Assembly (NCBI RefSeq): GCF_900473935.1
Contig: NZ_UCNN01000030.1
Location: 1-64,000, forward strand
From: Synechococcus sp. UW105
Lineage (GTDB): Bacteria > Cyanobacteriota > Cyanobacteriia > PCC-6307 > Cyanobiaceae
DNA length: 64,000 nucleotides
Reading direction: 5' to 3'
Below are positions 1 through 6,589 of the stretch, piece after piece. Position 1 is the stretch's first letter. The number at the start of each line of letters is the position of its first letter. Position numbers and translations under genes: made by a program. The notes beneath the pieces are model-generated. The model ran no database searches and had not been told where the DNA came from. It saw only the letters and a list, made by a program, of their open reading frames with translations.

Positions 1-192
1 ACGATTTCTGGTGAAGACCTGGTGAACCAGGCCCGACGGACGCTCGGCTTGCGGTTGATTGGCGCAGCGCGCTCAAGTGCAGTCAGTGCAGCCCCGCTGT
101 TTGCCTGTCTGTGTGTTGGCTTTTGGATGCTCTTGAACGGGTCTCACAAACAGATTGGAGACCCGATTGGCTGGCATGGGCTCAGACGCTGA
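1..192 (+). CDS. 3' end of an unidentified membrane protein gene (partial)
   Basis: Frame 1 is open from the first base to a TGA at 190-192, giving 63 residues of a protein whose start lies outside the window. A hydrophobic stretch at about residues 29-45 looks like a membrane segment, followed by a short polar tail. An 8-bp inverted repeat (138-145 with 158-165) lies inside the frame and has no T-tract, so it is not a clear terminator. The reading ends 27 bases before the convergent gene on the other strand. I do not recognise the family. Confidence 0.4.
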   Translation, partial: TISGEDLVNQARRTLGLRLIGAARSSAVSAAPLFACLCVGFWMLLNGSHKQIGDPIGWHGLRR

Positions 193-219
193 GCATGGTC
201 TTGCTGCACGGAAGCAGCG

Positions 220-642
220 TTAGAGACTGTTCTCACGACCTGTGTTCGGGCCTTTGAACAGCTCGTTGGCCATCGAACGGAAGCCCTTAAGGCTGGCCCC
301 AGGACGACGACGTTGTTGCCGCAGGGCATTCCCCGGTTGAAGGGCTTCGGGGGCAAAGGTGCTCAGGGTCGCCACGGGCCGCTCAGCTTCGGCTGCAGCG
401 AGTTCAGCGGCAATCGCCTCGGCGGTTGTGAGGGAGGCGTCGTTGACTGTTTTGGCCTTGCCAGCAGGCTTGGAAGCAGGCTTCGCTGACCCTGCTTTCT
501 GCTTCGGATTGCTCGCTTTGGCCGCGGCAGACTCACTATCAGGTTCAGCTTCCCGAACAGGGGCAACGGTCACCGAAGCAGTGCTCGAGGTCTTGGCAAC
601 ATCCTCGAGTTCGAGGAAAAAGCCTTTCTTGTTGAACACCAT
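220..642 (-). CDS. Conserved hypothetical protein with Ala/Lys/Pro-rich linker
   Basis: A 140-residue soluble protein. I chose the ATG at 642 because the translation from there (MVFNKKGFFLELEDVA) begins with an ordered-looking segment, whereas the 18 upstream in-frame codons look like noise. Residues about 20-75 are low-complexity and rich in Ala, Lys, Ser and Pro. The C-terminal 45 residues are more ordered, with an RQQRRRPG motif and a segment resembling FRSMANELFK. It is divergent from the DUF92 gene at 702 with a 59-base gap. No function can be assigned; it may be a cyanobacterium-specific protein. Confidence 0.6.
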   Translation of the reverse strand: MVFNKKGFFLELEDVAKTSSTASVTVAPVREAEPDSESAAAKASNPKQKAGSAKPASKPAGKAKTVNDASLTTAEAIAAELAAAEAERPVATLSTFAPEALQPGNALRQQRRRPGASLKGFRSMANELFKGPNTGRENSL

Positions 643-701
643 GTCGTGATCTCGACAGTGACCTTGGCTGATTATCCGTTGCCTCAGGCCCTTCACGGTT
701 G

Positions 702-1481
702 ATGCTTAGGGCAGTGCAACACAGGCTGATGGCATTTCCCGCTCAGGATCTCACCATCTGGGGGATCGCTTTGGCCCTCAACGGCGTGTTGATCGCCCTC
801 GCTCAACGATTGCCTTTGCTGACCAAAGCCGGCTGGGTGCATGCAGGGATTCTCGGCACGATTCTGTGGGGATGCCTTGGTTGGCGTGGCTGGTTGGCCG
901 TGGTGATGTACCTGGTGTTGGGCTCCCTTGTCACCAGAGTTGGCCTTAAACGCAAGCAGGAAAAGGGACTGGCGGAGGCCCGTGGCGGACGTCGCAGCCC
1001 GGCCAATGTGTGGGGATCAGCTGCGGTTGGTGCCCTCATTGCTCTGTTGATCGGTGCGGGACTCGAGCCCGTTGGCCTGCTGCTGGTGGGATTCGCTGCC
1101 AGTTTTGCCGCCAAGTTGGCTGACACCTTTGGCAGTGAAATTGGCAAGCGCTGGGGACGCACCACCGTTCTGATTACGACGCTGCGACGCGTCCCTGCAG
1201 GCACGGAAGGGGCCGTGAGCCTTGAAGGAACCCTTGCGAGTGCTGCCGGCAGTGCAGTAATGACGTTGGTGGCCGTGGCATTGCAGTTGGTGCCTGCTGG
1301 GCCTGAAGCCTTACTCGTTGCCAGTGTTGGCTTGGTGGCCACCCTGATCGAAAGCGTTGTTGGGGCTTTGGTGCAGGAGCGTATCTCCTGGCTCAGTAAT
1401 GAACTTGTGAATGGGTTGCAGACAGCGATCGCGGCGATGCTGGCGATCGTCGCCGCGAACCTGCTTCAGCACCTCGGCTGA
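702..1481 (+). CDS. DUF92 family membrane protein (VTE6-like, putative phytyl-phosphate kinase)
   Basis: About 259 residues with roughly six hydrophobic segments, matching the DUF92 (TIGR00297-type) family. Signature-like features are the ADTFGSEIGKRWG motif near residue 145 and a following TLRRVPAGTEGAVSLEGT segment. In plants the family member VTE6 phosphorylates phytyl phosphate to phytyl diphosphate for tocopherol and phylloquinone synthesis, and cyanobacterial homologues are thought to do the same; this is family knowledge and has not been shown here. The ATG at 702 is used, although a later ATG at 729 is possible. Its 3' end overlaps the convergent sigma gene by 16 bases. Confidence 0.8.
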   Translation: MLRAVQHRLMAFPAQDLTIWGIALALNGVLIALAQRLPLLTKAGWVHAGILGTILWGCLGWRGWLAVVMYLVLGSLVTRVGLKRKQEKGLAEARGGRRSPANVWGSAAVGALIALLIGAGLEPVGLLLVGFAASFAAKLADTFGSEIGKRWGRTTVLITTLRRVPAGTEGAVSLEGTLASAAGSAVMTLVAVALQLVPAGPEALLVASVGLVATLIESVVGALVQERISWLSNELVNGLQTAIAAMLAIVAANLLQHLG

Positions 1482-2342
1482 TCCCCCACGCCGTCTCTGC
1501 CTGCGGCCATCTCTTGCAAAACTTGCAGGGATTGCCTGAGGACCGTCCTCACCTCGACGTGACTTAGGCCCTTCTGGCGGCCAATCTGGCGAACGGTCTC
1601 TCCAAGGACGTAATGGCGAATGAGCAGCTGACGGGCATGGTCAGGCAATTGGCGCATGGCTTGATGCAACCATTCCAGTTGGTGATCGGTCTTGGTGTCT
1701 GTGCGCGAGTCCGCGAGTTGTTCAATTAACGCCGTTGCGGCTGCTCCTGTGGATGTTGCGGCGCTGGTTCCCGGTTGGTGAAGGCTGGCTGACCAGATAG
1801 CGATGCTGATGGGCCTCGAGCGCCTGCAGCCAGCGGTCCACTGAGACATCAAGAGCATCCGCGAGCTGTCTGGTCAAAAAAGGAGGCAAACCTTGTTGCA
1901 GCCGTTGTTGCTGGATTTTCATCCCCTGCGCATGCAGGTTCAGCAGCCGCCAAGGAATATGCAGTGTGCGCTCTCGATCACGACGAAAATGCATGATCTG
2001 GCCATTCGCCAGAGCCATCACATAGCTGCTGATTCGGTGCCCGCGCGATGGGTCAAACCGTTCTGAAGCTTTGATGAGACCCAGTTGGGCTTCCTGGAGA
2101 AGATCATCGTGTTCGCCTGTGCCGCGGGCCAGCTGACGGCCTGCAGCCAGGTGTGCCAGACCGAGATGGCGCAGAACACGTTCATTGCGTCGTCGGACGC
2201 TGGGATCGAGCTGTCTTCGGTTTTCTTGGCGGATCCGTTGTTGCTCGACTGTTGCTTGATCTGAGTCTTGAACCTGGCGTCTACGAACCATGAATGGTGG
2301 AACCACTGCATTCACGCTCTGTGTTTTCACGGGCGGTTCCAT
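1466..2342 (-). pseudogene. Sigma-70 family factor (group 2/3 type) split by a frameshift
   Basis: The first frame (from ATG 2342, with a GTG just upstream) encodes sigma region 2 (HDDLLQEAQLGLIKASERFD, then a segment ending HFRRDR) and region 3, then reads into a stop at 1722. Region 4 continues in another frame (QLPDHARQLLIRHYVLGETV, ending at 1466). The break coincides with GGCTGGCT at 1783-1790, which reads AGCCAGCC on the coding strand. Removing one AGCC joins the frames into V-S-L-H-Q-P-G, close to the S-L-D-Q-P motif usual between regions 3 and 4, and gives an exact 290-residue protein. The gene may be inactive, or may yield a product of about 206 residues lacking region 4. A sequencing error cannot be excluded. 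Confidence 0.8.
1783..1790 (-). repeat. 4-bp tandem duplication causing the sigma-factor frameshift
   Basis: The plus strand reads GGCTGGCT, two tandem copies of GGCT (AGCC on the coding strand). One copy gives an uninterrupted sigma factor; two copies shift the frame. It sits exactly where the two halves of the protein should join. Confidence 0.75.
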
Positions 2343-2363
2343 CACCCTCAGGAGTGATTCTGT

Positions 2364-2615
2364 TCACCCCAGAGGGGGTATGAATTCCTGCTTCAGCACG
2401 GCAATCAGCTCCAGGCATGAACGCATGGGCATGCCGTTGTCGAGACTTGGCTGAATTTCCGCTTCCAACGTTCGGATCACAGATTCAGCACTTTCCCCTC
2501 GCTGCATGAGTTCCCGCACCGCGAGGATGGCGGCCTCTTCCGTAAAGCCGAGCAGAAATTCCTTTAACTGGTCTGTGCTGGCTTTAGCAATAATCGCGGC
2601 AGTGGGGTTGGGCAC
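2364..2615 (-). CDS. Small conserved hypothetical protein
   Basis: An 83-residue, mostly helical soluble protein starting at a GTG (2615). It has an amphipathic pattern (TDQLKEFLLGFTEEAAILAV, then RELMQRG) and no cysteine pair or signal peptide. It lies between the SGNH hydrolase and the broken sigma gene, all on the minus strand, with 48 and 21 base gaps, so it may be co-transcribed with them. I do not recognise the family. Confidence 0.55.
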   Translation of the reverse strand: MPNPTAAIIAKASTDQLKEFLLGFTEEAAILAVRELMQRGESAESVIRTLEAEIQPSLDNGMPMRSCLELIAVLKQEFIPPLG

Positions 2616-2663
2616 AGGTAGGTCCCGTTAGAAGGCAACTTTAGGGAAACTGTGTGTGCCCAA

Positions 2664-3350
2664 TTAGCTCCAGAGTGGCGTGGTCTGGGTTTGAGCTTCT
2701 AATCCTGCCCAGCTGAGTAGGGCTGGCCAATGCATCACCCGTTGGTGGATCCAGTGGTGTCCATCGGCATTGAGATGAATCCCGTCCGGCTCGATCCACC
2801 CCAGCCAACCCGTTTCCTGTTGCATCGCCTGATGCAAAGCCAGAAACGGCACATCCGCTTCGAGGCAGGCCTCTTCCAGCTGTGCCTCGTAGACCGCAAC
2901 GGAGGCATTGTCGTACCAGAGGCACTGCGCGAATGGCATCGCAGCTTCATCCACGGCCGTGAGGCCCAACACCATCACCTGCGTTCGCGGTGCCATCGCC
3001 CGAATCAGTTGTTCGACTCCAAAGCGATAGGCCTCAACCGAAAGTTGGCGTCGCCCATCGGCACGACCGACCCTGGCGCTGTCGTTGAGGCCCACGGCCA
3101 GAAGCAAGCCAGCGGGTGTTTGACGACGAAGCTCTCCGCGGCGCTCCCATTCTTGTTCCCATCGTTTTGCCACGTTTTCCAGCCCATCACCGCGCACGCC
3201 GAGTGAATAAATCAACGGCATCTCAGGTGTTTGCATCCAGCTCAGGCGCAGCCGCTCACACCAACCACCGCCTACTCGGTCCCCCCATCCGTAGACGCCG
3301 CTGTCGCCGATCACCGTGAGTTGGCGGGGTGCTTGCATCGCTGAGGGCAT
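2664..3350 (-). CDS. SGNH/GDSL-type hydrolase
   Basis: A 228-residue protein. Block I is IGDSGVYGWGD with the candidate nucleophile Ser17, a GLND block near residue 88 supplies the Asn, and DGIHLNADGHHW near residue 194 supplies the Asp-His pair. This is the complete SGNH catalytic arrangement, so it is likely an esterase, lipase or deacylase with unknown substrate. There is no obvious signal peptide, so it is probably cytoplasmic. It starts 22 bases after the end of the ABC permease gene and is probably in the same transcript, which could link it to the imported compound, though that is inference only. Confidence 0.85.
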   Translation of the reverse strand: MPSAMQAPRQLTVIGDSGVYGWGDRVGGGWCERLRLSWMQTPEMPLIYSLGVRGDGLENVAKRWEQEWERRGELRRQTPAGLLLAVGLNDSARVGRADGRRQLSVEAYRFGVEQLIRAMAPRTQVMVLGLTAVDEAAMPFAQCLWYDNASVAVYEAQLEEACLEADVPFLALHQAMQQETGWLGWIEPDGIHLNADGHHWIHQRVMHWPALLSWAGLEAQTQTTPLWS

Positions 3351-3372
3351 GTTCTCTCACAGCTTTGCAGGC

Positions 3373-4920
3373 CTAGGTGGACGCGCTCTCGCCTGGGGTT
3401 CGTAACCAGCGCTGTCGAAGTCCATCACTAATGCTTTCCCCAGCCAGGGTGAGCAGTGCGAAACAAACGATGATCAGCAGCACCGCCGCCCAGTGAAAAG
3501 AACTGAGGGATTCAATCAGCATCCAGCCCAGTCCGGTACCGCCTACTAGACCGACGACAAGCGTTTCCCGCAGAATGACATCGGTGCGATAGGCCCCGTA
3601 GGCCAGGTATGAACGGCTCTGTGGGCTGAGGCAGCCAAGCAGCCACGCCTGTCTTGGCCCTGCCGCGGTGACTTCGATGGCCTTCATCGTTCCAGGGCTT
3701 TGCTGGTCCAGTCCCTCCACCAGCAGGCGTCCCATCACCCCGGCGTTCTGAAGGCCGAGGGCCAGCGCTGCCAACGCCAGGGAGGGCAGATTGGCCAACA
3801 GAAGCATTAAGAGCGTGAGCGGCGGCGGAAGGACTCTTTGAAGCGTCCAGAGACCGAGGAAGACCTGTTTCGCGATTCTTCCAGGAAAGATCAGCAGGCA
3901 GAGGGGCGGAAGGGCAATGGCAATAGCAGCTGCCAAAAGCGTGAGTCGCATGGTTTGCTCGATCATCCGCAGCCATGGCAGCTCTGTGGCAGCGAGCTGT
4001 AAGGCGCTGATATCAGGGAGCGGTGGCAGCATTAGTTGCAGGGTTGTGCCGCTGGTGGGCAGCAGTTGCTGGAGCCAGTGGCCACCAACCAGCACAGCCA
4101 GCACGGTCATGGTCAGAACGCTGACACCGTTCCATTGGCTGGGGTTTGTTTGTTGTCGATGCCTCCAGAACGTCAGACCTTGTTCCAACAGCACGCTGAG
4201 GAGGATTAACAGCCAGAGGCCCGACCAGAATTCTGCGAACCGAAGGGACTGGAGGGTGAGTTGCAGCTCTGTGCCGATCCCGCCCAGGCCGAACACACCC
4301 AGCAAGGTGGCGCTGCGAAGGGCGCATTCCAGTCGATAGCCGCCGTAGCTCAGCAAGATCGGCTGAAGCGGAGGGCCGATGCTGGAAACAAATGCTGCGG
4401 GGGCTGAAGCTCCGCTTTGCAGCACCGCGGTCAGCCTTCGCCGGTCGATGCTGTCAATTTGGTCTCGAAACACCCGGGCGACCAGAGCGGAATAGGGAAT
4501 GGTGATCGCCGCAACTGCAACCCAGGGATGCAACCCCAAGACTTGCAAGAGCAGCAGACCCCAAAGCAGTTCGTGGATAGCTCTGGGCAGTGCTAGCAGG
4601 CTGCGTATGGCGGCAGCAGGCCAGGTGGGGATTTTGGCACTCTCCCAGAGCACATCACTGCTGAAAACCCCCAGCAGCAGGCCGATCAGGGTGCTAAGCC
4701 CCCAGCCAACTAAGGCTGTGGCCAGGGTGACCTGCAATCCTTCCCACAGCGATTTCAGCAAGAGAGGGTCCTTGCTGGGCTGCACGGCTCCTTGGAGGAA
4801 TCGCCACCAGGTTTCGAACCCGCCGCCATGCAGTCCTTCCCCCACCACGATCAACACGGGAACGAGAGCGAGAGCCGGTAGCAGGCAGAGAAGAGGTGCG
4901 CTGACGACGGGTCGCTTCAT
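3373..4920 (-). CDS. phnE: ABC transporter permease, PhnE-like, two permease domains fused
   Basis: 515 residues, about twice the usual PhnE length (around 270). Two membrane domains follow one another, each ending with an EAA-like cytoplasmic loop. The first has GYRLECALRSATLLGVFGLG near residues 195-215 and the second has AYRTDVILRETLVVGLVGGT near residues 445-465. The second loop closely resembles that of phosphonate/phosphite permeases. Its ATG overlaps the stop of the ATPase gene by 4 bases (ATGA), so the two are translationally coupled. It forms the membrane channel of the importer encoded by the next two genes; the substrate is uncertain (see the binding protein). Confidence 0.85.
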   Translation of the reverse strand: MKRPVVSAPLLCLLPALALVPVLIVVGEGLHGGGFETWWRFLQGAVQPSKDPLLLKSLWEGLQVTLATALVGWGLSTLIGLLLGVFSSDVLWESAKIPTWPAAAIRSLLALPRAIHELLWGLLLLQVLGLHPWVAVAAITIPYSALVARVFRDQIDSIDRRRLTAVLQSGASAPAAFVSSIGPPLQPILLSYGGYRLECALRSATLLGVFGLGGIGTELQLTLQSLRFAEFWSGLWLLILLSVLLEQGLTFWRHRQQTNPSQWNGVSVLTMTVLAVLVGGHWLQQLLPTSGTTLQLMLPPLPDISALQLAATELPWLRMIEQTMRLTLLAAAIAIALPPLCLLIFPGRIAKQVFLGLWTLQRVLPPPLTLLMLLLANLPSLALAALALGLQNAGVMGRLLVEGLDQQSPGTMKAIEVTAAGPRQAWLLGCLSPQSRSYLAYGAYRTDVILRETLVVGLVGGTGLGWMLIESLSSFHWAAVLLIIVCFALLTLAGESISDGLRQRWLRTPGESAST

Positions 4921-5684
4921 GGCTTGGGAGCAGCCCGGCGTCCTTCTGATGAGGCGCGGTAGAGCACGTCTAGATCCTTGGTCGTGATCGATGCGGAAGG
5001 AGCATCCATCACGACGTGTCCATCGCGTAGGGCAATCACCCGGTCAAAACGATCGATCAGATCTGGACGGTGCAGGCAGACCACCGTCGTGCTCGCCAAG
5101 ATGTCCCCTGCAGATGTCGGTGTTTGCCGCAACAGGGTGTTGAGCAAATCCTGCACCAGTGCTGGGTCGAGATTGGAGAGCGGCTCATCCGCCAGCACAA
5201 GATCCGGGCGTTGCCGAAAGAGGCGTGCCAGCGCAACGCGTTGGCGTTGCCCTCCTGAGAGGGTGGTCACGGAGCGATCAATCAGGTCTTGCTGCAGACC
5301 TGCCTGCTTCAGGCAGGTCATGCAGGCATCTCGTTCCAAAGGCACCAGCAGATTGGCCAGGGCCCACAACAGGGAGCGACGCCCAAGCGCACCGCAATTG
5401 ATGTTTTGGGCCACCGACAATTCCTCCACCAGGTGGAGGTCCTGCCAGAGCGTGCCGATCCGTCGACGCTGGCGACGTGGAAGTTGATGCACTGGTGTGC
5501 CCTGCCAGAGCGCAGTGCCGCTGCTCGGCTTGAGACTTCCATTGGCGATGGAGAGCAGAGTGCTCTTGCCGGCACCACTGGGTCCGATCAGAGCAATGGT
5601 CTCCCCTGCCCTGAAGGTAAGGGAGACGTGATTGAGGCGAGGGCTGTCGCGGCTAGTGAGACAGACATCGCGCAGCTCAAGCAT
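4917..5684 (-). CDS. phnC: ABC transporter ATP-binding protein, PhnC-like
   Basis: A 255-residue ATPase: Walker A GPSGAGKST at residues 34-42, signature LSGGQRQRVALAR, Walker B LVLADEPLSNLD and a switch histidine in VVCLHRPDLIDRFDRV. This layout fits PhnC and similar oxyanion importers. I start it at the ATG at 5684; a TTG at 5693 that overlaps the stop of the binding-protein gene is an alternative. It powers the permease encoded immediately downstream. Confidence 0.88.
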   Translation of the reverse strand: MLELRDVCLTSRDSPRLNHVSLTFRAGETIALIGPSGAGKSTLLSIANGSLKPSSGTALWQGTPVHQLPRRQRRRIGTLWQDLHLVEELSVAQNINCGALGRRSLLWALANLLVPLERDACMTCLKQAGLQQDLIDRSVTTLSGGQRQRVALARLFRQRPDLVLADEPLSNLDPALVQDLLNTLLRQTPTSAGDILASTTVVCLHRPDLIDRFDRVIALRDGHVVMDAPSASITTKDLDVLYRASSEGRRAAPKP

Positions 5685-5689
5685 CACGG

Positions 5690-6589
5690 TCAACGGATCT
5701 TGCCCAGTTGCCTGCCGACGGTTTCGATCGGCGCATACTGTGACGCCGATGCCGGGATGAACTCTTCAGCTGCAAACAGGCTCAGGATTGTTTTGCCGTT
5801 GGCGGTTGTTGGTTTGATCCCAAGAATGGCTTTTTGCAGCTTTGTTGTGAATCCGCTACCGAATCGTTTGTCTAGGACAGGACGGGCAACCCAGTGGTAA
5901 TCCACATACGTAGGCGTACGCCAGATCACCGTCACTTTGTTCGGATCGGCTGCTCCGGATTTCAGCGCACTGGTCCAAACCTGTTCGTTTAAGGCACCGG
6001 CTTCGTAGGAGCCGCTCTGCACAAGAGCGATCGTTGCGTCATGGCTGCCGCTGAAGCCAGGGCGTCCCCCAGCGAACTGATTGGGAGTGACACCGCCCTG
6101 CTGGAGGAAGTGCTGAGGCATCAATCTCCCGGACGTGGAACTTTCCGATCCGAACGTGAACCGTTTCCCCTTGAGGGTCTGCAGTCCTTCCAGGCTGCTG
6201 ATCGATTGCAGACCAGACTGGGTATTGGCGATGAAGACGCTGCGGAATTTGGCATCGATGTCCCTCTGGGCAAGCACCGTGGCCCCGGGGGTCTGGAGAC
6301 GTGCCTGCACCCCGGTCAGTCCGCCAAACCAAACGACGTCGAGGCCTCCGGTGCGAAAGGCACTGACCGCCGCTGGGTAATTGCTAACGGGCACGTAGCG
6401 AACGGGCACCTGAAGCTTCTGGCTGAGCTCTTGGGCAAGAAGTCCGTAGAGCCTATTCAGTTTCTCGGGGTTCTGATCGGGAATGGCACCGATCCGCAGG
6501 GTTTCAGCTGCCCAACTTGGAAGGGCCGTCGTTGAAAGACTGCAGAGCAGCGCAAGGCAGACGACGGCCCGGTGTTCTCGTGCTGACAT
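5690..6589 (-). CDS. phnD: Periplasmic binding protein of a PhnD-like (phosphonate/phosphite or selenate-type) ABC importer
   Basis: 299 residues with an N-terminal signal peptide (hydrophobic core about 8-20, cleavage near PSWAAE). The mature part has PhnD-family features: RIGAIPDQNPEKLNRLYGLL, YPAAVSAFRTGGLDVVWFGG, GSESSTSGRLMP and GFSGSHDATIALVQSG. PhnD proteins bind phosphonates or phosphite. The IPDQNPEKL form also resembles the subgroup that databases call putative selenate-binding, so the ligand is uncertain. Three genes (binding protein, ATPase, permease) run in order, and the aminotransferase gene ends 32 bases upstream. Confidence 0.85.
   Translation of the reverse strand: MSAREHRAVVCLALLCSLSTTALPSWAAETLRIGAIPDQNPEKLNRLYGLLAQELSQKLQVPVRYVPVSNYPAAVSAFRTGGLDVVWFGGLTGVQARLQTPGATVLAQRDIDAKFRSVFIANTQSGLQSISSLEGLQTLKGKRFTFGSESSTSGRLMPQHFLQQGGVTPNQFAGGRPGFSGSHDATIALVQSGSYEAGALNEQVWTSALKSGAADPNKVTVIWRTPTYVDYHWVARPVLDKRFGSGFTTKLQKAILGIKPTTANGKTILSLFAAEEFIPASASQYAPIETVGRQLGKIR

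Follow-up and report, generated by a model that had tools for sequence, protein, structure and literature searches.

Layout of the split sigma-factor gene

The window, by which we mean the whole stretch of 64,000 nucleotides from Synechococcus sp. UW105 that was analyzed, carries a SigF-like sigma-factor gene (2342 to 1466, minus strand) in which Sigma70 region 2 and Sigma70 region 4 are encoded in separate frames. The upstream frame, which can start at GTG 2345 or at ATG 2342, stops at 1722 and carries region 2 (PF04542; E value, 1.3e-11). The downstream frame ends at 1466 and carries region 4 (PF08281; E value, 1.2e-6). The switch between the two frames is the sequence AGCCAGCC at 1783 to 1790 on the minus strand. 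The features of the locus are as follows.

699..1481, plus strand: DUF92 membrane protein gene, an intact convergent neighbor whose 3' end overlaps the end of sigF
1466..2342, minus strand: SigF-like sigma-factor gene, frame-shifted (two open reading frames, Pfam matches to regions 2 and 4, open orthologues in the genus)
1526..1675, minus strand: Sigma70 region 4 (PF08281), in the second frame (Pfam match)
1722..1724, minus strand: stop codon closing the upstream frame (list of open reading frames)
1783..1790, minus strand: AGCCAGCC, frame-shifting 4-bp tandem duplication (single unit in Synechococcus sp. UW140)
1939..1940, minus strand: equivalent of the GA dinucleotide that holds the 16.9-kb serine-integrase element of genome G010
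1949..1957, minus strand: TTCCTTGGC (codons I-P-W-R), uninterrupted in the window and identical to the 9-bp direct repeat around the 8.2-kb insert of UW140
1965..2171, minus strand: Sigma70 region 2 (PF04542) (Pfam match)

A previous, sequence-only reading had assigned regions 2 to 3 and region 4 to different frames, and both the open reading frames and the Pfam matches bear this out. Its coordinates and its length of 290 residues for the repaired protein also hold (877 bases minus 4 give 291 codons, including the stop). The S-L-H-Q-P linker that it deduced from removal of one AGCC unit is found in nature, since UW140, with one AGCC, reads VSLHQPGT. No Rfam match was detected in positions 1 to 6000 of the window.

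In the intact orthologues, as in SigF-type group 3 sigma factors, a single protein of ~260 to 290 residues harbors both region 2 and region 4, whereas the window has these regions in different frames. Similar to cyanobacterial SigF (group 3; Synechocystis slr1564), the intact orthologues have the NCBIfam SigF model as their best match, over nearly the full length, and contain PF04542 and PF04545/PF08281. They differ by their scores, which for two of them were 136 and 125 bits, below the curated cut-off of 261. We therefore designate the window's gene and its orthologues as SigF-like and regard them as divergent. No second SigF copy was found in the window genome.

Comparison with UW140 and age of the break

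The exact species is represented by one genome only, and the closest relative found was Synechococcus sp. UW140 (G029; contig NZ_UCOB01000003.1). The alignment spans ~62 kb, nearly the whole window, at 93 to 97% identity, with DNA identities of 95% on the 5' side of the gene and 93% on its 3' side. UW140 has a single AGCC unit, and its frame is open across the site, which provides the comparison with a close strain that the sequence-only reading had proposed as a check. None of the homologues examined displayed the same split. The aligned region contains 27 indels, 22 of which are not a multiple of three. All of these non-triplet indels other than that at 1783 are located in intergenic regions, before a start codon, or at a stop codon, and the indel at 1783 is the sole frame-breaking one within open reading frames of at least 200 residues. 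It is this status that exceeds chance, rather than the frequency of the 8-mer AGCCAGCC, which is unremarkable by count (3 occurrences in the window versus 5.1 expected).

Sloppy assembly is unlikely, because no other frame-breaking coding indel separates the window from UW140 in open reading frames of at least 200 residues, and the comparison thus suggests that the duplication is probably real rather than an artefact. An assembly or sequencing error, the gene being intact in the strain, would fit with the good conservation of both halves; we nevertheless consider it unlikely, on account of this low background of coding indels over ~62 kb and of the ten further genomes in which sigF is interrupted by different lesions. 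The sequence error that had been proposed earlier is accordingly kept as an alternative of reduced weight.

Both parts of the gene have dN/dS ratios similar to those of intact sigF pairs. Between the window and UW140, the ratio is 0.155 upstream of the break (5' part) and 0.29 downstream of it (3' part), and most pairs of intact sigF genes in the genus range from 0.07 to 0.25 and from 0.16 to 0.47, respectively. Since both parts match the intact pairs, dN/dS does not point to a prolonged relaxation of selection, and the break is probably recent. The increase in dN/dS in comparison to neighboring genes (P = 2e-6) was considered as a sign of relaxed selection and rejected, since intact sigF pairs behave similarly. 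The recent inactivation put forward by the sequence-only reading is thus favored by the single unit in UW140, the restriction of the split to the window among the homologues examined, dN/dS values typical of sigF, and the frequency of independent breaks in relatives (see below).

The sequence-only reading had also envisaged a reversible switch, in which gain and loss of AGCC by slippage would toggle SigF. Such phase variation appears very unlikely, even though a 4-bp tandem duplication can be reversed exactly and the two halves are conserved, because there are only two units, the 8-mer is no more common than expected by chance in the window, UW140 has no repeat tract at the site, and the broken homologues are interrupted elsewhere in the gene. 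Two units in the window and one in UW140 do not amount to the conserved tract of variable copy number among relatives that characterizes contingency genes. The switch is therefore conceivable in principle and unsupported by the data.

Loss of sigF among relatives and mobile elements inside the gene

Among the 31 genomes of the genus, 25 sigF copies are open, including one cut by a contig end, and the gene is broken in 5 genomes. The lesions comprise the 4-bp duplication of the window genome (G000), a stop codon in region 4 (G017), and inserts (G029, G010, and G025). In a second genus (g20), frameshifts or stops interrupt 6 of 17 copies (G107, G108, G109, G114, G115, and G122; loci L076, L077, L078, L081, L130, and L131). 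We took the eleven breaks to be independent, because they are of different kinds or lie at different places. At the scale of the family, a sigF match was present in 149 of the 271 genomes that are at least 90% complete, and no match was obtained in the listed small-genome genera. Group 3 sigma factors were reported in 2009 to be uncommon in Prochlorococcus (PMC2784084). No relative of the sigma gene was found in IMG/VR.

The broken copies of the relatives terminate at differing points, a pattern more in keeping with loss than with conservation of a short product. This bears on the possibility that the split gene is still useful, either as a region-2-only competitor or as a source of full-length SigF made by ribosomal frameshifting. 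Although both region 2 and the frame encoding it are preserved, this explanation is extremely improbable, since the truncation points vary among relatives, leaving no conserved short form, and since the sequence has no slippery heptamer at the frame junction.

The insert of UW140 measures 8,179 bp between the starts of two 9-bp direct repeats, TTCCTTGGC, located in codons I-P-W-R. A 493-residue tyrosine-integrase-like protein adjoins the 3' junction (PHROG integrase; E value, 1.2e-18), and relatives of this integrase occur in 41 of 400 genomes of the family. Excision alone would not restore sigF in UW140, because the 3' half also has a stop. The element (L039:1554-9760) additionally carries a gene for a YadA-anchor protein and other unnamed open reading frames. 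A distant relative of the integrase (32%) is encoded on a different contig of the window genome (G000:C7:73413-74651).

The insert of G010, which belongs to another species of the genus, is a phage-like element of 16,896 bp (L040:1486-18380; G010:C1:1351485-1368379). It encodes a 478-residue serine integrase immediately within the 5' junction and has genes for a terminase large subunit, a tape measure protein, a primase/helicase-like protein, and a T5orf172 protein; no capsid gene was recognized among the proteins scanned. The flanks have only the dinucleotide GA in common, such minimal identity being expected for a serine integrase, and when joined they encode an open SigF of 285 residues. 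G010 therefore combines, as skin-like elements do, a recombinase located inside the gene with restoration of the frame by precise removal, a combination that the window's gene does not display. The closest parallels are the skin element in sigK of Bacillus and Clostridioides and SP-beta in spsM (PMC5025042, PMC4191935); in G010, the interrupted gene encodes a sigma factor, the phage-like insert has a serine integrase, and precise removal would leave the gene open. G010 differs from these systems by the sigma factor involved, the absence of sporulation, and the fact that excision is predicted from the joined sequence; UW140 differs by its tyrosine-integrase element and the decayed 3' half of sigF.

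The insertion sites of UW140 (tyrosine) and G010 (serine) are separated by ~10 bp and fall within the same conserved codons of sigF. On the left side, the junction in G028 coincides with the UW140 position, and that in G025 with the G010 position. In G025 (L041:14400-19600), the 5' part of sigF is followed by an insert of several kilobases and then by a decayed 3' remnant; the insert has outer-membrane-barrel and TPR-like open reading frames, with no integrase recognized. G028 has an extra truncated copy of sigF beside an insert with two Nif11 leader-peptide genes (L043:1-3626 and L044:1-600). The first 55 bases of contig C4 of this genome are shared with the 5' half of sigF, and in a second 55-base overlap the end of the insert equals part of the upstream UPF0114 gene. 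A mixed population including excised forms was considered for G028 and rejected, since the two overlaps are more simply accounted for by a 628-bp duplication and one intact sigF.

Relatives of both integrases in other genomes did not adjoin sigF in any of the flanks retrieved, neither integrase had relatives in IMG/VR, and no tRNA was found in the UW140 and G010 loci. A further proposal, which we regard as unlikely and for which G010 would be the candidate case, is that integrases unrelated to one another share sigF as their attachment gene in marine Synechococcus, insertion and excision providing reversible on/off control comparable to that exerted by the sigK skin element.

Expected role of SigF and significance of its loss

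The pilin and other cell-surface genes of Synechocystis are under the control of SigF. This factor directs transcription of pilA1 (PMC2758279), and sigF mutations arise as suppressors in cultures (pilD-suppressor strains; PMC8546353). These strains resemble the window genome in the loss or reduction of SigF activity, which in them arises and is selected in culture, and differ in that the changes are missense and occur in a pilD deletion background (PMC8546353). By analogy, altered pili or an altered cell surface would be the likely effect of SigF loss. Since the window genome retains the type IV pilus secretin and ATPases, no parallel loss of the machinery that SigF would be expected to target is seen, and sigF loss did not track with pilus-gene loss.

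Taken together, the evidence makes it likely that a recent loss-of-function 4-bp tandem duplication inactivated the sole SigF-like factor of this marine Synechococcus. An event of the strand slippage type would have duplicated AGCC and shifted the frame of sigF, and the resulting product, devoid of region 4, would leave SigF promoters unread. In this reading, the gene is dispensable and is repeatedly lost in the clade through stops, small indels, and mobile-element insertion at the I-P-W-R codons, the break in the window being one such loss.

Taken by itself, the split is an unexceptional and most likely recent loss of a gene, which alone would define a recent pseudogene, and the noteworthy part is sigF as a repeated integration site. 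The pattern of loss and integration around sigF is more interesting than the split. Neither the recurrent loss of sigF nor its use as a site of integration was found described in the open-access literature searched. With the relatives, the locus reveals an alternative sigma factor repeatedly lost in an abundant marine group and two kinds of site-specific recombinase landing on the same sigF codons. If excision occurs, the case would be one of a cyanobacterial element that splits a sigma-factor gene; if it does not, the inserts still illustrate one route of SigF loss.
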